Of a stretch of DNA of 64,000 bases, positions 2,874 through 58,157 are shown piece after piece. The notes beneath the pieces were generated by a model. That model was not told where the DNA came from and ran no database searches. It worked only from the letters and a program-made list of their open reading frames with translations. The translations under genes were made by a program, and so were the position numbers. Positions within the stretch are counted from its first letter, which is position 1. Every line of letters starts with the position of its first letter. The stretch comes from a virus: the IMG/VR virus record IMGVR_UViG_3300032236_002285, positions 124,001 to 188,000 of that record; one strand, written 5' to 3'.

Positions 2874-3473
2874 ATGAATATATGGTTTACATCTGATACA
2901 CACTTTGGTCATACAAATATTGCGGGTCCTAAAGTTTCTAACTGGAAATCTGGTTATAGAGATTTTAACTCTGTTCATGAAATGAATATGGCTTTGGTTG
3001 AAGGTATCAATAAATATGTTAAAGAAGATGATATTCTCTATCATCTTGGTGATTGGAGCTTTGGGGGAGTTCATAATATTTTACAATTTAGAAATTATAT
3101 TGTCTGTAAAAATATACACCTGATTTTAGGTAATCATGACCAGCATATAACTGACAAGGAAATAAAGTATCATGATACTTCATTTAATCCAATTCAGCTT
3201 TTTTCATCAGTCCAAGATGTTTTACACTTGAAGTTGGGTAAAACTGAGTTGTTTCTTTCTCACTATTCTCATCGTGTTTGGTTAGGTAGTCATAAAGGTG
3301 TTATACATCTTTATGGTCACTCACATGGTTCAATTCCTGACTATGGAAAATCAATGGATGTTGGAGTTGATGTTGCTTTTAAGAGATTTGGTGAGTATCG
3401 TCCATTTAATATTGGTGACATAACAAACATTATGTCTAAAAGAGAAGTAGAAAAAATAGACCACCATGGATAG
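2874..3473 (+). CDS. Calcineurin-type metallophosphoesterase
   Basis: 199 aa. Metal-site motifs appear in the usual order: SDTHFGH (D8, H10, H13), LGDW (D60), GNHD (86-89), SHYSH (129-133) and YGHSHG (147-152). This is a compact single-domain phosphoesterase of the kind phages use on nucleotide or RNA-end phosphates; the substrate is unknown. The ATG at 2874 is chosen because the host-type promoter lies directly before it, while the longer frame runs through the promoter. It shares eight bases with the next small gene. It is too short, and lacks the context, to be the Mre11/gp47 nuclease. Confidence 0.85.
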   Translation: MNIWFTSDTHFGHTNIAGPKVSNWKSGYRDFNSVHEMNMALVEGINKYVKEDDILYHLGDWSFGGVHNILQFRNYIVCKNIHLILGNHDQHITDKEIKYHDTSFNPIQLFSSVQDVLHLKLGKTELFLSHYSHRVWLGSHKGVIHLYGHSHGSIPDYGKSMDVGVDVAFKRFGEYRPFNIGDITNIMSKREVEKIDHHG

Positions 3474-3636
3474 TTTATATAATAGATTATCTATTCTAAA
3501 GATGATTCTTAATTCGAGTTATGGTGAAGGTAAGACCGTAACTAATGTATATGAGGAATCTTATAAAATAAGAAAAAAGATACACTCAATAAAAACTAGA
3601 AAAGAAAAAATTAAACGAATATTCTATTTGAAATAG
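3466..3636 (+). CDS. Small basic protein with shared C-terminal tail
   Basis: 56 aa (MDSLYNRLSILKM... to RKEKIKRIFYLK). Its ATG overlaps the stop of the phosphoesterase (ATGGATAG), the same eight-base coupling seen elsewhere in this window. The Lys/Arg-rich C-terminus matches the tail R-x-x-K-I-K-x-I-x found in about eight other small proteins here. Function unknown. Confidence 0.6.
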   Translation: MDSLYNRLSILKMILNSSYGEGKTVTNVYEESYKIRKKIHSIKTRKEKIKRIFYLK

Positions 3637-5882: not shown

Positions 5883-6280
5883 TAATAAGCTTTGATTTTG
5901 ATGGAACTTTAGTAGATGAGTTTGGTGGTCACCCATCAAATAGTCAAAAAGAAGAAATTCAAGGACTCGCTAAGAAGTATATTAGTTTAGGACATGAAGT
6001 AATTATTATTACTAAACGATTTGGTCCAGAAAATGCAGATAAAGGTATCAAAAATGAACATTTAGAAGTTCAACATCTGGCTAATAAGTTGGGTATTCAA
6101 AAGGTTTACTTTACTAATCGTGAAATGAAATTTTCATATATTATTAACTTGAAAGTTGATAGACATTTTGAAAATGATGATTATGAGGTTTCTTTAATTA
6201 ATCAGGTTTGTAAAGAAAAAGGCCACAACTGTTTAGTTGTTCCGGTAGAAGACCCTTATTGGAGAGATTTAATATATTAA
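5879..6280 (+). CDS. HAD-superfamily phosphatase
   Basis: 133 aa. The nucleophile motif FDFDGTLVD (D5/D7) starts a short HAD fold; VIIITKRFG serves as motif II, and KVDRHFENDDYE supplies the acidic motif. There is no large cap domain, so it is a C0-type phosphatase probably acting on a nucleotide, sugar or nucleic-acid end. It is coupled to the Gre-like gene through an ATGA overlap. Confidence 0.75.
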   Translation: MIISFDFDGTLVDEFGGHPSNSQKEEIQGLAKKYISLGHEVIIITKRFGPENADKGIKNEHLEVQHLANKLGIQKVYFTNREMKFSYIINLKVDRHFENDDYEVSLINQVCKEKGHNCLVVPVEDPYWRDLIY

Positions 6281-6282
6281 AA

Positions 6283-6654
6283 ATGAATAAAACAAATTTT
6301 ATAGAGTTTATTAAAGAGTTAGGATTTGCGCAAGTTTGGCAGACAAATCCTAACTATTTTAGTTTAACAACTGACGTGATTGGTCTCGCTAATCAAAATT
6401 ATCAAGCTTTTTGTGACCAATTAAACGTTCATCTTGATGATGAAAATGAATTGGCACAATTATCACTCTCACAACTGAGTACTCATACGAGTGCTGGTAA
6501 AAGTTTTGGTAGATTTGACTTAAAAACATTTGGTGAACCAGGTGATTTTCAGATGCAGATCTTTATGAGTTTTGTGAAAGGTGCTTTTAAGAATCCACCA
6601 AATAATATAATTCAATATATGAGAGATAAAAAAATCAAAAGTATTCTAAAATAA
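6283..6654 (+). CDS. Unknown protein with shared C-terminal tail
   Basis: 123 aa from the ATG at 6283 (MNKTNFIEFIKELGF); the frame extends upstream, but this ATG follows the previous stop directly. Gln/Asn/Ser-rich centre, no known domain. It ends MRDKKIKSILK, a good match to the shared tail R-x-x-K-I-K-x-I-L. Confidence 0.6.
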   Translation: MNKTNFIEFIKELGFAQVWQTNPNYFSLTTDVIGLANQNYQAFCDQLNVHLDDENELAQLSLSQLSTHTSAGKSFGRFDLKTFGEPGDFQMQIFMSFVKGAFKNPPNNIIQYMRDKKIKSILK

Positions 6655-7076: not shown

Positions 7077-7559
7077 ATGATTAAATTTAGTAAAATGGTA
7101 ACTGAAAATGCTAGTACATCTGGTTTTAAGTTAGGATTAGATGTTCATGGAGTTATAGATGCTATGCCTGAGTTCTTTGCTTTTCTAACTGATTCATTTG
7201 TTAAAAATGGTGGTGAAGTTCACCTAATAACTGGTGGTCATTGGAACGAAGGATTTGAAAAACAACTAACTGAATGGGGTATAAAATGGTCACATAAATT
7301 TTCAGTTTATGACCATCTAATTGAAACTGGTGCTAATATTGTTGGTGAAATTCAATTCCCAGATGGAACAATTCAAAAGAAATTTGAAGATGGTCTTTGG
7401 GACCATGTTAAGTCTGACTATTGTAAACAACATAATATATCATTACATATTGATGATACCTTGGTGTATAATGATTTTTTCCAAACACCATTTGCTAGAT
7501 TATGGTCACATAATCAAAAACCAAAAGCGTCTCATAAAGACCTAAGACACTTAAAATAA
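7077..7559 (+). CDS. HAD-like phosphatase with capsid-targeting-type leader
   Basis: 160 aa. Residues 1-11 (MIKFSKMVTEN) resemble the internal-protein leader, with Glu at position 10. The enzyme part starts at about 17 with LGLDVHGVID, a HAD motif I in which the second Asp is His (D-x-H). LITGGHW gives motif II and HIDDTLVYND the metal-binding motif. The phage-type promoter three bases upstream is the kind seen before other leader-bearing genes. The stop overlaps the next start. The phosphatase fold is fairly clear; its packaging in the head is inference. Confidence 0.65.
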   Translation: MIKFSKMVTENASTSGFKLGLDVHGVIDAMPEFFAFLTDSFVKNGGEVHLITGGHWNEGFEKQLTEWGIKWSHKFSVYDHLIETGANIVGEIQFPDGTIQKKFEDGLWDHVKSDYCKQHNISLHIDDTLVYNDFFQTPFARLWSHNQKPKASHKDLRHLK

Positions 7560-7987
7560 TGAAAAAATCCGCTGGTGTAGTTATTGTCTTGAGAAAAGAC
7601 AAGGTATTTCTTTGTCATCCAACCAACTCAAATTGGTATGGAACTTATTCTTTTCCAAAGGGTGGAGTTGATAAAGATGAAACCACATTAGATGCTGCTA
7701 TACGAGAACTAAAAGAAGAAACATCTATTGTAGTTAATACAAAACAAATATCAAATATTAAAGATCCTATTGTTGTTTATTACCAAAATAAAAAGGGTAT
7801 CTTATATAAGAGTATAGCTTTATATACGGTTTATATAAATAGTGTCTCTGAGATTGGTTTAGAGTCAGAAATTCTTCCAAAAGAAAGACTTCAATTAGAA
7901 GAAGTTGACTGGGCCGGTTTTCTTACAAAAGAAGAAGCTAAATTAAGAATTTTTCATAAGACCGCTTCTGTATTAGAAACAATTTAA
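7559..7987 (+). CDS. Nudix hydrolase
   Basis: 142 aa. A full Nudix box spans 35-57 (GGVDKDE...RELKEETSI), with the metal-binding REx2EE intact; the usual Gly near the end is Ser. The N-terminus (KSAGVVIVLRKDKVFLC) is the normal first strand. It should hydrolyse a nucleoside diphosphate linked to another group; likely substrates include NTPs, dinucleoside polyphosphates and capped RNA ends. The start is coupled to the HAD gene (TAATG). Confidence 0.88.
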   Translation: MKKSAGVVIVLRKDKVFLCHPTNSNWYGTYSFPKGGVDKDETTLDAAIRELKEETSIVVNTKQISNIKDPIVVYYQNKKGILYKSIALYTVYINSVSEIGLESEILPKERLQLEEVDWAGFLTKEEAKLRIFHKTASVLETI

Positions 7988-40450: not shown

Positions 40451-41419
40451 ATGATTAAAAGATATTTAGAGTTTATAAAAGAATCAAATTATAATGGCTT
40501 TAACTCACTTGGTGAGTGGGTTGAAACTCTTATGGATGATGAGTATGTTAGAAACATAATCGCTCGTTATACAAAAGATTCTGATGCTTCTATTAATTTA
40601 TCAAATGCTATTAATATCTTAGATGAGAAAGCTCAATCTGAAATTAAATCACAAATTGATAATTATTTACAAAATGGTATTGAAGAAAAAGAACCTCAGT
40701 TTTTAGTTTCAACTGATTTAGAAGAGTTAACAGAAGCACTTGCTGAAGAAATAACAATGGCTGGAAAAGGCATATTTACTTCTTTCTTAAAGGCTTTAAC
40801 ATCTTTAGGTCAAAAAGAAGTTGGACCAAATTGGTCTAAATGTCCAGATGACTTTTTACTATACTATTATTATCCTAATTTACAATCAGAACATGTAAAA
40901 CAAGTATTTTCAAGATTTAAATCTTTAAGTAGATATTTGGACCACGTTGATTATCAAAAGAATGAAGTTGATTTATACTTTGGTATTAAATGTGACGGCA
41001 ATTTTGAATATGGTTTACATTATGATGAACCAACACCAATTGGTCAATTTAAACTAAATCAATCTGTTATTAAATGGATTTGTCAGATTGAATCTAAATC
41101 CGCTCATTCATTAAAGAAGGAATTAGTTAATTTAAGTTTAGCTGATGTAATGACATTGAGTAAGATTAAATTAGATATGAAAGACTTTAATCCTGGGTTC
41201 CACGAGTCAAAAGATGTTGTGAAAATTCAAGATAAGATAATCTCTTTTGGTTACAAAGGTTTAGGTAAATGGGATAATGGTAAATTTGATGAAGGTGAAT
41301 TTATGAATATTAAAAATAACTTTACAACTTGGTTACTTACGAAGAAATGGGGTAGTAGAGTTTTAATTAGTGTTAAACCAACATCATACTATGTTTACAT
41401 ACATATAAAATTAAAATAA
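40451..41419 (+). CDS. Internal-head-protein candidate
   Basis: 322 aa. The ATG at 40451 is chosen because the promoter directly precedes it. Leader MIKRYLEFIKESN, expected cut after E11. The mature part is helical with no enzyme motif (LEELTEALAEEITMAGKG; WICQIESKSAHSLKKEL). It starts a plus-strand group with the next leader-bearing gene three bases away. Confidence 0.7.
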   Translation: MIKRYLEFIKESNYNGFNSLGEWVETLMDDEYVRNIIARYTKDSDASINLSNAINILDEKAQSEIKSQIDNYLQNGIEEKEPQFLVSTDLEELTEALAEEITMAGKGIFTSFLKALTSLGQKEVGPNWSKCPDDFLLYYYYPNLQSEHVKQVFSRFKSLSRYLDHVDYQKNEVDLYFGIKCDGNFEYGLHYDEPTPIGQFKLNQSVIKWICQIESKSAHSLKKELVNLSLADVMTLSKIKLDMKDFNPGFHESKDVVKIQDKIISFGYKGLGKWDNGKFDEGEFMNIKNNFTTWLLTKKWGSRVLISVKPTSYYVYIHIKLK

Positions 41420-41422
41420 GAT

Positions 41423-41734
41423 ATGAAATACTTAAAGAAATATAACGAGAATGTAGAACAACAAGACCCTGAGTTTGCTATTGCTAAGATTAAAGGTAGA
41501 TATCCTGAAGATATGGCTAAAGAAATGTTAGACAAAGAAGTTAAACAATGGATTCCAGATGATAAGGATCCTGATTTCTACTCCACTTCAGGAAATGGTG
41601 AAGCAGAAGATGTTATTATTGATCAAATGATTGGTTGGTTTGAGAAAAAGTATTATGCTTTATCTGAAGAAAACTTTCAAAAGGTAAAAGAACTGATTCT
41701 AAAAGAGTATGAATTCTTAAACTTCAACTACTAA
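41423..41734 (+). CDS. Small internal-head-protein candidate
   Basis: 103 aa. Leader MKYLKKYNENVEQ, cut expected after E9. Acidic and helical; no recognised domain. It has no promoter of its own and follows the previous gene by three bases. Confidence 0.65.
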   Translation: MKYLKKYNENVEQQDPEFAIAKIKGRYPEDMAKEMLDKEVKQWIPDDKDPDFYSTSGNGEAEDVIIDQMIGWFEKKYYALSEENFQKVKELILKEYEFLNFNY

Positions 41735-41779: not shown

Positions 41780-42214
41780 ATGGAAAAACCAAGTAAAGAA
41801 GATATAATGAAAAAATGGGCTCCTGTTTTAGAGTCTATGGGTATGACTGGATCTCAATTGGATAATTTATCACAACTAACCGAAAATCAACCAAATCAAA
41901 TATTAGAAGAAACTAAAACTGAAGAGTTTCCAAGTTTATTACCAATAGCTATGAGGGTAGCCGCTAGAACAATATCAAATGATTTAATATTTGCTTCACA
42001 AGAAGAAATTGACCAAGTTAAAAAGAAAGTTCAATCTGAAAATCGTGATGGTAAGATTGAAGCCATTATAGAAGATAAAGAATTTACTGAGAAGAAATTA
42101 GAAGATGATGAAGAGTATAAGGAATTGATGAAAAAAGGTGTTAAACCTATGTCGGCACCTTCAGGAACTTTATTCTATTTAGATTATAAGTATGGAGGAG
42201 ACAAAGATGAGTAA
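41780..42214 (+). CDS. Short gp23-like (major capsid N-terminal) protein
   Basis: 144 aa from ATG at 41780. It reads like the N-terminal part of the T4-type major capsid protein: SKEDIMKKWAPVLESMG matches the KWxPLLEGEG opening, SLLPIAMRVAARTISNDLI the conserved AIPNLIAFDI-type segment, and PMSAPSGTLFYLDYKYGG the PMNSPTGQVF-x-LRAVYG segment. The rest of the capsid fold (P and A domains) is absent and the protein ends at a normal stop. I infer a truncated paralogue or mimic, not the working capsid subunit. Confidence 0.6.
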   Translation: MEKPSKEDIMKKWAPVLESMGMTGSQLDNLSQLTENQPNQILEETKTEEFPSLLPIAMRVAARTISNDLIFASQEEIDQVKKKVQSENRDGKIEAIIEDKEFTEKKLEDDEEYKELMKKGVKPMSAPSGTLFYLDYKYGGDKDE

Positions 42215-42392
42215 ATATGTAAGTCCTGGAGTTTATATTAAAGAAACTGATTGGAGTGGTATTTATCCAGTATTTCAAAGAAATCTTTTAAGAAAGAATA
42301 AAATAGCTAAAATCTTTGGTTTAGATGTTAGATCGCTTATTATAACTTCAACTCCAAAAGGTCCAAATAATTTTCCAATTATTGCTTGGTGA
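42207..42392 (+). CDS. Short tail-sheath N-terminal-like protein
   Basis: 61 aa from ATG at 42207 (ATGAGTAA overlap with the previous stop). MSKYVSPGVYIKETDWSG is the characteristic first strand of T4-type contractile tail sheaths (x-SPGVxxKExD). The rest (RSLIITSTPKGPNNFPIIAW) does not continue the sheath fold. It may be a fragment, or a small protein that copies the sheath arm. Confidence 0.55.
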   Translation: MSKYVSPGVYIKETDWSGIYPVFQRNLLRKNKIAKIFGLDVRSLIITSTPKGPNNFPIIAW

Positions 42393-42794: not shown

Positions 42795-43061
42795 ATGGGT
42801 TCAATGAAAGAAATAGCAATTAGAGATTATATTTCTAAAATAGACTTCAAGCACGATGATTGGAAGCTTTCTCAATTAAAAGAAGACATGCGTAGATTCT
42901 TAGGTGAAGAACCAGGAATTGAAGTTGTTTATAAAAAAGATGTAATGGTGAATGAAGTATCCGGAGAATCTAAAGAATTCTTAGATATTGATAAAATTCA
43001 AATTGTATTCACTGATACAGATGACAGATTTAAAAAAATAGAATTTACATTAGGTGTTTAA
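42795..43061 (+). CDS. Small unknown protein
   Basis: 88 aa (MGSMKEIAIRDYISK...). Mixed helix and strand, ending IQIVFTDTDDRFKKIEFTLGV. No family recognised. It is followed immediately by two more small genes in one unit. Confidence 0.55.
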   Translation: MGSMKEIAIRDYISKIDFKHDDWKLSQLKEDMRRFLGEEPGIEVVYKKDVMVNEVSGESKEFLDIDKIQIVFTDTDDRFKKIEFTLGV

Positions 43062-43062
43062 T

Positions 43063-43284
43063 ATGAATTTTGAAAATTACTACTTAGATATACAAAAAAT
43101 ATCTCAAATACCTTCACTTGAAGATAGGGACCAAATACATAGATACTATATGGATATGCTTATTTTTTTTACTGATGGTTCTGGTAGAGAAAAAGTATCA
43201 CAATCAATTATGAAAACACTTATCAAATCTGGGTATTTAATTGATTCTCGTGATGAAAAATTAGGTGAATTGTTAAATGGATAA
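43063..43284 (+). CDS. Small unknown protein
   Basis: 73 aa from ATG at 43063 (MNFENYYLDIQKI), chosen over an in-frame GTG inside the previous gene. It ends SRDEKLGELLNG, a weak match to the shared C-terminal tail, and its stop overlaps the next start (ATGGATAA). Confidence 0.5.
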   Translation: MNFENYYLDIQKISQIPSLEDRDQIHRYYMDMLIFFTDGSGREKVSQSIMKTLIKSGYLIDSRDEKLGELLNG

Positions 43285-45744: not shown

Positions 45745-47154
45745 TTAGCAGTCGTAACAATCTACTGTTCCTCTACCACTACAATTATCACATTCTACTG
45801 TACCATCTCCGTTACATTCTGGACAATCTGTTTCATTTCCCTCTTCATCTTCAATGTGACCTAATCCTTCACAATTTGAACAATCAACACTTCCATCTCC
45901 ACCACAATCGTCACATTCCATTCTACCCGTTCCGCCGCAAGTATCACAAGGTCTAACATAGTCACCACCTGTATCTTCTAAGAAATAACAACCACCAGTA
46001 TCTTCACTTGAAATAGTTTTTTTACGAGGATTGAAATATTTAAGTGTATCTAAGTAAGGGAAATTATCCATACTAGCATCAGTTAAATTAACCGTTAAAT
46101 CTAAATTAACTCTACTTCCATCCGGTGCTACAGCTTGATTACTATCTGAACTATTATTATATTCTTTATAATACCAACCATTTTCTTTAGCATAATCTCT
46201 GAATAATTGAACATCTGAATCATTTACCGTATAAACTCTGTCTAAGAATTCTTTACCATCTCTTAACTTCCAAAGTAAAGCTCTACCAACAATTTTTTCA
46301 GTATCATCCATTGATTTGTAAATAACTAAACCAACTTCTGGATTAGCAGTGTAAACTTCTAACCAACTATCTGGAGCACCAGCCATACAAGACGAACCTA
46401 AAGTCCCACTTCTTTGATAATAATTTGAGTTATGATACCAGTGAGCAATATCAGAACCCCTAACAACTTCAAAGTAAGAGAATTTATCATTCATCTTATC
46501 AATAGTAGCTTTATATAAATTTACAAATTGTTCAAAATCTCTATCAGCAAATGTAGTAATACCAGCAGCTCTTAAAAGTGCTCTCATAGCTCTACCTACT
46601 TTTACTTCTTGTCTGTTTGTTGACCAAACTTTTTTAATTCTCTCATCAACAGCTCTTATCTTTTCAACATTATAAACACCTTGACCAACATCATTACCTG
46701 ATTGGTCTTTGAATTTAACCCAAGCATAAGTTTTACCTGATTGTTCAGATGTTACTCTAGCAATAACCTCACCTAAATCTGTAGATTGTGGTTTATAAGG
46801 CTCAGAGCCTTCTTCAAATGTATAACCTAGTTGAGTAAATAATTTTGCATTTGAATCTTTGTGTTTTAACCAACCACCACCAGAACCGATAAATCTAACT
46901 ACTTCTTTAGTATCACCTAAAATCTCTTGAGCTTTTCTATCAGGAGTAAAAGTAATTGTATCGTTTTTTGTGAACTCAATATCAAGGTAATTAGCTTGAA
47001 CATTGTAGTCATTATTTTCAGCATCTAAAATAGCTTTCGCTACAGGGCTGTCAATCTTAGTCATTGCTTTTCTGAAGTTATCGGAATAAACAACATTAGA
47101 TTCTAGAATAAATTCTAGGTTTTCGTTTATAAAATCTGAATATTTTTTAATCAT
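45745..47154 (-). CDS. Leader-bearing protein with DnaJ-type zinc-finger tail
   Basis: 469 aa from ATG at 47154 (a TTG two codons upstream is rejected). Leader MIKKYSDFINEN. The centre (about 215-380) is paralogous to the protein at 15699-16652 (FVNLYK, SCM, RALLW, FLDRVY, AKENG, FPYLDT). The last 65 residues hold repeated C-x-x-C-x-G-x-G units (CDTCGGTGR, CDDCGGDGS, CSNCEGLGH, CPECNGDGT, CDNCSGRGT) like the DnaJ zinc domain, with a final CYDC. No J domain is present. An internal head protein with an unfolding or binding module is a fair inference. Confidence 0.68.
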   Translation of the reverse strand: MIKKYSDFINENLEFILESNVVYSDNFRKAMTKIDSPVAKAILDAENNDYNVQANYLDIEFTKNDTITFTPDRKAQEILGDTKEVVRFIGSGGGWLKHKDSNAKLFTQLGYTFEEGSEPYKPQSTDLGEVIARVTSEQSGKTYAWVKFKDQSGNDVGQGVYNVEKIRAVDERIKKVWSTNRQEVKVGRAMRALLRAAGITTFADRDFEQFVNLYKATIDKMNDKFSYFEVVRGSDIAHWYHNSNYYQRSGTLGSSCMAGAPDSWLEVYTANPEVGLVIYKSMDDTEKIVGRALLWKLRDGKEFLDRVYTVNDSDVQLFRDYAKENGWYYKEYNNSSDSNQAVAPDGSRVNLDLTVNLTDASMDNFPYLDTLKYFNPRKKTISSEDTGGCYFLEDTGGDYVRPCDTCGGTGRMECDDCGGDGSVDCSNCEGLGHIEDEEGNETDCPECNGDGTVECDNCSGRGTVDCYDC

Positions 47155-47183
47155 TTTCAACTATGTTATATTTTAAGATATAA

Positions 47184-47224: not shown

Positions 47225-47413
47225 ATGCTAGAAATTAAAGTAGAAGGTGTTGGTATTGAAAAAGCCTTAAAAACACTTAAAAGAAAATTTGACAAAACTA
47301 AAACTCTTAGACAATTAAGAGATAGAAAAGAATTTGTTAAAAAATCAGTTAAAAGAAGAGCTGAAATAAACAAAGCTAAATATGTTCAAGAAAAGTTTGG
47401 TAACAACGATTAA
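47225..47413 (+). CDS. rpsU: Ribosomal protein bS21 homologue
   Basis: 62 aa, full length for bS21. MLEIKVEGVGIEKALKTLKRKF, DKTKTLRQLRDRKEF and KKSVKRRAEINKAKYVQ reproduce the family order: an opening strand, ALK-x-x-KRKFDK-T, RQLR-x-R and VKRRAEI-x-KA. bS21 sits at the 30S platform near the 3' end of 16S rRNA; in Bacteroidetes it helps hide the anti-Shine-Dalgarno sequence. The phage copy could replace host bS21 on ribosomes and change which mRNAs are read. It overlaps the next gene by 32 bases. Confidence 0.9.
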   Translation: MLEIKVEGVGIEKALKTLKRKFDKTKTLRQLRDRKEFVKKSVKRRAEINKAKYVQEKFGNND

Positions 47414-47693
47414 GAATTTATTCAGTGATAATCAAAGAACATTTGATTTAGGTAAACTACAAAAGGTTGGTTTTATAAAACCTTTAGAAGATCTATCTGG
47501 TTGTCCTAATTGTAAAAGTAAAAACATATCTTGGAAGTTCTTTATACCAGTAGATGGCTCAAAACCTACACAACCATCTTTATCTATCTGTAAAGATTGT
47601 GGATATCAAGATATAAGAGGTGAATTTGAAAAAACAAACAAATCATTACTTAGAGAAAAGAAAATTAATAAGATATTAGATGGGATTCAATAA
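47382..47693 (+). CDS. Zinc-ribbon protein with shared C-terminal tail
   Basis: 103 aa. CPNC (about 41-44) and CKDCG (about 69-73) form a zinc ribbon. It ends LLREKKINKILDGIQ, a match to the shared tail. The start lies inside the bS21 gene, so expression is coupled to it. Function unknown. Confidence 0.6.
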   Translation: MFKKSLVTTIKNLFSDNQRTFDLGKLQKVGFIKPLEDLSGCPNCKSKNISWKFFIPVDGSKPTQPSLSICKDCGYQDIRGEFEKTNKSLLREKKINKILDGIQ

Positions 47694-57247: not shown

Positions 57248-57810
57248 TGTCACATATATCAATTATTGATTGGATTACGGCTTTACTAATAGCATTGCCT
57301 TTATTTACTTTGTTTATTTCAATTCCAAGTTTTGTTGCTATGTATAAACTTGGTTTCAAAGCTTATCGTCAACAACTTCGTGTTTTGAAAATTATGAATC
57401 GTAAGATATCAAGTGGTTATAAAGTCATACATAATCAAGTTTATACATATGCTGGAACGGGTTATAATGTGCCAAATACAGTAACTAGAGTTGAAACTAA
57501 TCATTTTTTCCCAATTGTTATTGATAAAGACCATTTAATAATCTTAACAAAGAAGGAAGGACCTTTCAATACACTTTATATGCAATATTGTGAATTTAAA
57601 AATAAAGAATGGTCAAATGACAATATTGAAATAAAAACTTCAACTTGTTTATTTACTCAACTTCTTAATGATAGATTTCAAAAAAAAGTTGATAATCTTA
57701 TGAAAGAATCTGTTCAAATTGAAGGTGTTGAAAATCTAAACGAGTTATTAAATAGCCAAATAACTTCTATCAAAAGAGAAGAAGTATTAAATTCTATATT
57801 AAATGGATAA
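57247..57810 (+). CDS. Membrane-anchored protein with shared C-terminal tail
   Basis: 187 aa. One or two N-terminal membrane segments (about 9-33, WITALLIALPLFTLFISI) are followed by a basic soluble part facing the cytoplasm by the positive-inside rule. It ends KREEVLNSILNG, the shared tail. Stop overlaps the next ATG (ATGGATAA). Function unknown. Confidence 0.6.
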   Translation: MSHISIIDWITALLIALPLFTLFISIPSFVAMYKLGFKAYRQQLRVLKIMNRKISSGYKVIHNQVYTYAGTGYNVPNTVTRVETNHFFPIVIDKDHLIILTKKEGPFNTLYMQYCEFKNKEWSNDNIEIKTSTCLFTQLLNDRFQKKVDNLMKESVQIEGVENLNELLNSQITSIKREEVLNSILNG

Positions 57811-57976
57811 GAAAGATATTGTTATAGTAGATTATTTTACTAAACTAACAACTACTGAGCTTTCTGATGATGGTATTGAGGCATTTCGGAAATTAAACTT
57901 TCGTGTTTTAAATATTCGCAAGTGGAGAGGAAAAATAGAAAGACGAAAAGAAAAAATTAAAAGAATCTATGGATAA
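57803..57976 (+). CDS. Small basic protein with shared C-terminal tail
   Basis: 57 aa (MDKKDIVIVDYFTKL... to RRKEKIKRIYG). Overlaps neighbours on both sides by eight bases with the same ATGGATAA junction. Its C-terminus shares RKEKIKRI exactly with the 56-aa protein at 3466-3636, although the rest differs. Confidence 0.6.
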   Translation: MDKKDIVIVDYFTKLTTTELSDDGIEAFRKLNFRVLNIRKWRGKIERRKEKIKRIYG

Positions 57977-58157
57977 CAGAGACGTTATTGAAATCTTTGG
58001 TCAATTACTTAATAGTAATAAAGAAATTATGATGTTGAATTCTAGACAAACTGGTAAATCATCATCAGCGGCTCTTGTTAACTGGAGAAAAACATTTGAT
58101 AAGTATAATCGTGCTCAAGATAGAAAAGAAACCATAAAACGACTTTTTAATATATAA
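57969..58157 (+). CDS. Small protein with terminase-like P-loop fragment
   Basis: 62 aa. MMLNSRQTGKSSSAALVNW resembles the phage large-terminase Walker A form SRQ-x-GKT/S, but the rest of an ATPase is absent. It ends RKETIKRLFNI; the last three codons are part of the phage-type promoter of the next gene. It may be a fragment or a regulator rather than an enzyme. Confidence 0.5.
   Translation: MDNRDVIEIFGQLLNSNKEIMMLNSRQTGKSSSAALVNWRKTFDKYNRAQDRKETIKRLFNI
58146..58156 (+). promoter_or_regulatory. Phage-type promoter (TTTAATATATA)
   Basis: Exact consensus overlapping the stop of the previous gene, 14 bases before the ATG at 58171. Confidence 0.6.

Follow-up and report, generated by a model that had tools for sequence, protein, structure and literature searches.

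Small phage proteins joining core-protein fragments to a shared tag, and their possible role against co-infecting T4-like phages

Why would a very large bacterial virus carry, as two separate short genes, what look like the beginnings of a major capsid and a tail sheath protein? The question is raised by the window considered here, a stretch of 64,000 nucleotides covering positions 124001-188000 of the 476,236-base record IMGVR_UViG_3300032236_002285, in which two successive open reading frames (ORFs) encode proteins of 144 and 61 amino acids (aa), hereafter mini-gp23 and mini-gp18 (Table 1). An earlier note, made from the letters alone, had read them as overlapping genes copying the N-termini of T4 gp23 and gp18, with proper stops and no sign of decay. 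Both ORFs are indeed present, end at ordinary stops and overlap by 8 bases, as is usual for coupled genes. The same genome encodes a full-length major capsid protein (MCP) of 564 aa (genome 62115-63809), away from mini-gp23, a sheath-like protein of 1,296 aa, and intact T4-like protease, portal and terminase, so that the pair is neither a broken gene nor the remnant of a lost continuation. A split or frameshifted gene, a sequencing error and a pseudogene are rejected on these intact full-length genes, on the conservation of the pair, and on the dN/dS ratio of mini-gp23 against its closest copies (0.19-0.24). What had escaped the earlier note, which saw two isolated genes, is that both belong to a large set of tagged fragments: their anatomy is, with high confidence, that of modular mimics, in which one or several fragments of core phage proteins are joined to a shared tag.

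Mini-gp23 matches PHROG_138 (major head protein) at residues 120-143 (E 6e-5) and, at residues 6-70, MCPs from phages of the same clade (E 2.6e-6 to 5e-4), the propeptide and N-arm segments reaching E 2.6e-6 with the MCP of the huge phage LR756502; when the full-length MCP of the same genome was aligned, it proved 42% identical over residues 6-36. The proposed likeness to the start of gp23 therefore stands, except that it is interrupted at residues 72-120: the three MCP pieces (propeptide, N-arm and PMSAPSGTLFYLDYKYG) are split by a non-MCP module of ~47 aa, which separates the NDLIFA and VKPMSAPSG pieces that are contiguous in the MCP. The protein covers the propeptide, N-arm and first strand only, and at 144 aa does not reach the length of a full HK97 fold (about 430-570 aa). 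A profile built from the mini-gp23 modules alone recovers the same module in mini-ORFs of contigs L235 and L236 (domain E 1e-8 to 9e-13), where its copies sit within or behind other MCP fragments; a 250-aa ORF of L236 reads, in order, MCP C-terminus (by motif), module, MCP N-terminus, module and MCP first strand.

The resemblance of mini-gp18 to gp18 holds for its opening, that is for the first ~16 residues, whereas the rest consists of a tag and a terminase-like tail. The window copy matches sheath weakly (E 0.06-0.36) and its orthologue in genome G004 clearly, at E 1.1e-4 (in a small database). Contig L158 lends support, with a single ORF in which an MCP N-terminus (E 4e-10) is joined to a 20-aa sheath stretch (E 0.01, 45-50% identity) and, at the end, a tag. 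Past the N-terminal SPGVY motif no convincing sheath similarity was found, about 16-20 residues matching, and a PHROG search with the window mini-gp18 returned no hit. The TTPNG-like motif of the tail is suggestive of a terminase piece, with a match that is not significant by itself (E 0.77); other terminase matches involve a different part of the protein (E 2), and the sheath and terminase matches are both short. This tail is found in the window and in contigs L005, L006 and L008, and the proteins of L007 and L010 end differently.

The element common to the two proteins is the tag: the core of the mini-gp23 module and the tag of mini-gp18 fit one pattern, RxxK[IL]xx[IL], of which mini-gp18 has a basic version, RKNKIAKIF. 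A nine-residue tag profile (score at least 16, ORFs of at most 200 aa) finds 20 ORFs in the window's phage, 22 in LR745206, 11 in G004 and 10 in LR756502, against a shuffled-sequence expectation of 0.67 over all four genomes together. A looser C-terminal pattern occurs in 75 of the 247 ORFs of 60-150 aa in the window's phage (3.5 expected) and, for the same size class, in 113 of 444 in LR745206, 109 of 445 in LR756502 and 32 of 169 in G004; since the pattern was derived from ORFs first met through this finding, the enrichment tests here and below depend in part on that choice. The arginine of the tag lies ~10 residues before the C-terminus, and the C-terminal tag is nearly missing from ORFs of more than 300 aa. 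It is also rarer in proteins with an N-terminal capsid-targeting-like sequence (8 of 113 vs 428 of 2217, p 5e-4), present in the sampled stretches of LR756504, and essentially absent from those of LR756508, LR756501, LR756500, Lak-C1 and immuto. Codon choice inside the tag is near the genome background, so that it is selected as protein; a mild bias is confined to its last codons, where starts overlap. That the tag might be a DNA element, or the ribosome-binding site of the next gene, was rejected for its core, whose arginine and lysine codons deviate little from background. Over the whole record, about 30% of the 60-150-aa ORFs have a C-terminal decapeptide in common, R[DEN]xK[IL]xx[IL]..., often finishing in ...LGI or ...ILK (in the window, for example, 6259-6654, 43054-43284 and 47382-47693); adjacent tagged genes can form runs (genome 435493-437513), and the C-terminal tag is also carried by small cysteine-rich, RING-like or zinc-ribbon proteins (genome 461370-461591; G004 261549-261800).

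Across the four genomes, ~12 ORFs per genome join a basic tag to a recognisable or suspected core-protein fragment (here called minis), most tagged small proteins being otherwise ordinary unknowns. Core-protein matches concern 18 of 115 basic-tag ORFs and 18 of 1397 untagged ones (odds ratio 14, p 6e-12), a conservative contrast since some of the untagged matches are minis with variant tags. Five MCP segments tile gp23 (PHROG_138 residues 82-105, 183-236, 213-249 and 282-320, plus the C-terminus), among the matches being that of a mini at G004 81791 (E 2.6e-8 with PHROG_138). Mini-portals (E 5e-14 and 2e-6), protease/scaffold minis (E 3e-15 and 4.9e-4), the sheath mini of G004 (E 1.1e-4) and a mini with DNA polymerase motif A (E 0.002) are further clear cases, to which putative terminase, helicase and polymerase motif B fragments are added by short motifs only. 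A 79-aa tagged ORF of LR745206 (83154-83393, L058) apparently joins a ribonucleotide-reductase-like IKPSGSVSLSGHISGGI (weak PHROG match, E 0.13) to polymerase motif A, MDFASLYPS.

Is the pair maintained in related phages? Searching relatives for the same combination, as the earlier note had proposed, retrieved mini-gp23 followed by a small ORF in six of them, namely four IMG/VR contigs (70-82% identity) and the huge phage genomes LR745206 and LR756502 (43-45%), the overall identity of mini-gp23 to its six counterparts being 46-81%. In all six, the small ORF starts within or right at the end of mini-gp23, and in five it is sheath-like; relatives of mini-gp18 were located by position, its sequence giving no match in a search of viral contigs. 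In LR745206 the next ORF seems instead to contain portal-like stretches, KDYWFP and MKFVIPIGDMKDK, so that the content of the slot after mini-gp23 can apparently change. A basic tail, HKKTRRSKKKK, is found on the close mini-gp23 relatives and on that of LR745206, and the mini-gp18 start falls inside it in relatives such as L005; the window copy (42197-42214) has no such tail. The clade is represented here by four genomes and some additional contigs. Close copies of mini-gp23 have a dN/dS of 0.19-0.53, the corresponding values being 0.40-0.83 for mini-gp18 and 0.30-0.67 for other minis, compared with 0.07-0.12 for a neighbouring SbcC-like gene. Mini-gp23 is clearly under purifying selection, and the minis as a whole appear constrained yet fast-evolving, as would be expected for proteins in conflict.

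These data bear on the idea that the minis are by-products of mobile elements, i.e., exon pieces lying near intron, intein or homing sites that were copied and kept by chance, and whose peptide has no role. Several fragments (DNA polymerase A and B, terminase Walker A) do correspond to classical insertion-site motifs, a GIY-YIG-like gene follows the pair, and related contigs have a polymerase gene that is broken at motif B or has a GIY-YIG gene alongside. Homing would account for the catalytic motifs but leaves the conservation unexplained: the minis are under purifying selection with intact starts and stops, coupling overlaps and a tag conserved as protein, orthologous fragment-plus-tag combinations recur across phages whose minis are ~45-50% identical, and the MCP fragments are not obvious homing sites. 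We regard this explanation as unlikely.

If the minis are functional, do they address the proteins of their own phage, or those of others? In the window's phage, segments H1, H2, M and C find better matches among foreign T4-like MCPs than among those of their own clade. Foreign versus own-clade bit scores are 36.2 vs 16.2 for segment H1, 30 vs 25 for H2, 32 vs 15 for M and 46 vs 35 for C, and the H1 mini of G004 (81791) matched 1,614 phage records, of which the top-listed ones are annotated as T4-like major head proteins; the MCP of its own clade is not among its matches. The last segment of mini-gp23 is 68% identical to the immuto MCP over 19 aa, and up to 74% in IMG/VR loci, which puts this segment closer to foreign T4-like MCPs than to the phage's own. 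Across genomes, the comparison of own and foreign likeness is nevertheless mixed, some minis of LR745206 and LR756502 being nearer to their own clade. That the pair is part of a larger set, that it contains inserted modules and that several fragments resemble other phages' proteins argues against a role confined to capping the phage's own gp23 and gp18. It could still be supposed that the fragments regulate own assembly, by capping, seeding or timing MCP, sheath and portal: mini-gp23 retains the propeptide segment, which in gp23 probably targets the scaffold, the pair adjoins genes whose products open with T4-like capsid-targeting sequences (MIKRYLEFIKE...), and the LR745206 mini-gp23 is 41% identical to the clade MCP over the shared part. 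With DNA polymerase fragments in the set, and several MCP fragments barely like the own MCP, such regulation seems quite improbable.

The explanation we tentatively favour, at a probability of about 0.38, is that the minis are interference peptides acting in trans against co-infecting T4-like phages, a reading that would account for the foreign likeness of fragments, the number of structural targets and the fast evolution. The fragment would engage the matching protein, or its partner site, in the co-infecting phage; the tag would carry the fragment-target complex to a common partner, which may be a protease, a sequestering hub or a compartment; and assembly of the rival's head or tail would fail, the phage's own diverged proteins being spared. 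A shared partner for the tag is implied under every functional reading. Several observations weigh against interference. The N-segment of LR745206 and the C- and M-segments of LR756502 are closer to the MCP of the clade they belong to; catalytic motifs, which are not obvious assembly poisons, make up several fragments (DNA polymerase A and B, terminase Walker A); the dN/dS of mini-gp18, and of some other minis (up to 0.67), are just moderately below 1; and the AlphaFold prediction of mini-gp23 is uninformative (pLDDT 42). A more elaborate version, in which the clade captures pieces of rival phages' core genes, fuses them in frame to a standard recruitment tag and swaps them between lineages, forming a renewable library for protein-level immunity against co-infecting phages, is in our opinion rather unlikely; the slot after mini-gp23, where LR745206 has a portal-like piece in place of the sheath piece of the window's phage, would be an example of such a swap.

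Alternatively, could the target be the host? The minis may be decoys or adaptors directed against host immunity, the fragments occupying sensors without activating them, or the tag taking sensors to an inactivation hub. Self-protecting decoys should mimic own proteins, and several fragments better resemble other phages. To our knowledge, terminase and capsid sensors bind folded domains and not pieces of 15-40 residues (Lit-Gol excepted), which counts against decoys. On the other side, the fragment list overlaps known triggers: a major capsid protein activates CapRel, the Gol peptide of gp23 activates Lit and terminase activates STAND systems (PMC9712102), while DSR2 responds to tail tube (PMC11087589). 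Gol, a stretch from the first quarter of gp23, has been singled out as the best-conserved part of that protein (PMC3014915), and mini-gp23 seems, by position, to carry this region, split by the module. We consider such decoys the main alternative to interference, conceivable though doubtful.

How would interference peptides compare with known systems? Inhibition in trans by a truncated capsid protein exists elsewhere, in the p22-type Gag of Ty1 (PMC4599808), a partial capsid-protein copy produced from a separate start that acts on the full-length protein, and which is proposed here as a functional analogue of the minis. It derives from its own element, whereas the minis derive from T4-like capsid proteins, some nearer those of foreign phages and others those of the own clade; they are moreover diverged, tagged and cover many proteins, and their inhibitory role is a proposal. 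The tail assembly blocker Tab of prophage JBD26, paired with anti-Tab (PMC10884400), is likewise a phage protein directed at the assembly of competitors through a virion component; neither fragment mimicry nor a shared tag is described for it. In the T4 Gol/Lit system (PMC3014915), a short N-terminal stretch of gp23 acts as a peptide on a host protein, and mini-gp23 would have the equivalent region; Gol, however, sits inside the full-length gp23 and sets off a host defence, while the mini-gp23 region is split by the module and encoded in a separate gene. Interference competition between large phages is also known from the intron-encoded homing endonuclease of co-infecting jumbo phages (PMC11620839), which acts on DNA as a nuclease, unlike the minis, a conserved protein unit without nuclease domain. 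Finally, the capsid-targeting sequences of T4 internal head proteins are, like the tag, short terminal peptides common to many unrelated phage proteins, but they are N-terminal and tied to head packaging, and the tag is C-terminal or internal. A limited search of the open-access literature found no described counterpart of a family combining fragments with a common tag. If the minis act on rivals, huge phages would own a library of protein-level weapons aimed at many targets at once, with a logic similar to truncated-Gag restriction; if they act on hosts, the fragments would point to phage peptides read by bacterial sensors. In both cases the tag leads one to expect a partner shared by about one third of the small uncharacterised proteins that these phages encode.

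Table 1. Position and description of the minis, their segments and a neighbouring gene (coordinates are those of the window)
Feature	Coordinates	Strand	Remarks
mini-gp23	41780..42214	+	144 aa; MCP N-terminal fragments around inserted tag module
MCP propeptide-like segment, residues 6-36 (KEDIMKKWAPVLESMGMTGSQ...)	41795..41887	+	42% identity to own MCP, E 0.0019
MCP N-arm-like segment, residues 50-70 (FPSLLPIAMRVAARTISNDLI)	41927..41989	+	aligns to MCP QNLLPVAMKIAGQTIGLDLV
inserted non-MCP module, residues 72-120 (ASQEEIDQVKKKVQSENRDGKIEAIIEDKEFTEKKLEDDEEYKELMKKG)	41993..42139	+	module profile matches other mini-ORFs
core tag motif RDGKIEAII (RxxKIxxI)	42044..42070	+	same pattern as clade-wide C-terminal tag
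residues 121-139, VKPMSAPSGTLFYLDYKYG	42140..42196	+	close to foreign T4-like MCPs
mini-gp18	42207..42392	+	61 aa; sheath N-terminus, basic tag and terminase-like tail
tail-sheath N-terminus-like KYVSPGVYIKETDWSG	42213..42260	+	sequence matches of window copy, G004 orthologue and L158
tag RKNKIAKIF	42291..42317	+	tag profile score 25.8
LIITSTPKGPNNFPIIAW, resembles terminase TTPNG motif	42336..42389	+	69% over 13 aa to own terminase, E 0.77
MUG113/T5orf172 (GIY-YIG-like) neighbour, 110 aa	42422..42754	+	Pfam E 2.6e-16
56-aa tagged mini, DNA-polymerase motif-B-like LKMILNSSYG	3466..3636	+	C-terminal RKEKIKRIF, score 28.4; polymerase match weak, E 0.44
57-aa tagged mini, possible helicase Walker-B fragment	57803..57976	+	tag RKEKIKRIY, score 20.9
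62-aa tagged mini, terminase Walker-A-like NSRQTGKS (motif only)	57969..58157	+	tag RKETIKRLF, score 19.6

The GIY-YIG-like ORF next to the pair has similar counterparts at the same place in L005, L006, L008, L009 and L010. It was rejected as a common partner of all minis, most of which have no evident nuclease neighbour among the neighbours inspected, and Pfam and PHROG searches found no nuclease domain in the minis themselves. Many proteins of the window start with a T4-like capsid-targeting pattern (MIKRYLEFIKE, MKYLKKYNEN), for example at 40451-41419, 41423-41734 and 45745-47160, the last of which ends in DnaJ-like CxxCxG repeats.

A further observation concerns the polymerase gene of related contigs. 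In L236 (13180-13245), its motif B (...LKLVLNGS / YGAFA...) is interrupted in frame by 36 nucleotides that open with a TAA stop and contain a perfect 8-bp hairpin, GCCCCACC-AGAAAT-GGTGGGGC, resembling a T4 gene 60-type element for translational bypass. The same site is uninterrupted in L235, where a GIY-YIG protein with homing-endonuclease-like repeats (7198-7962) is encoded directly beside it.
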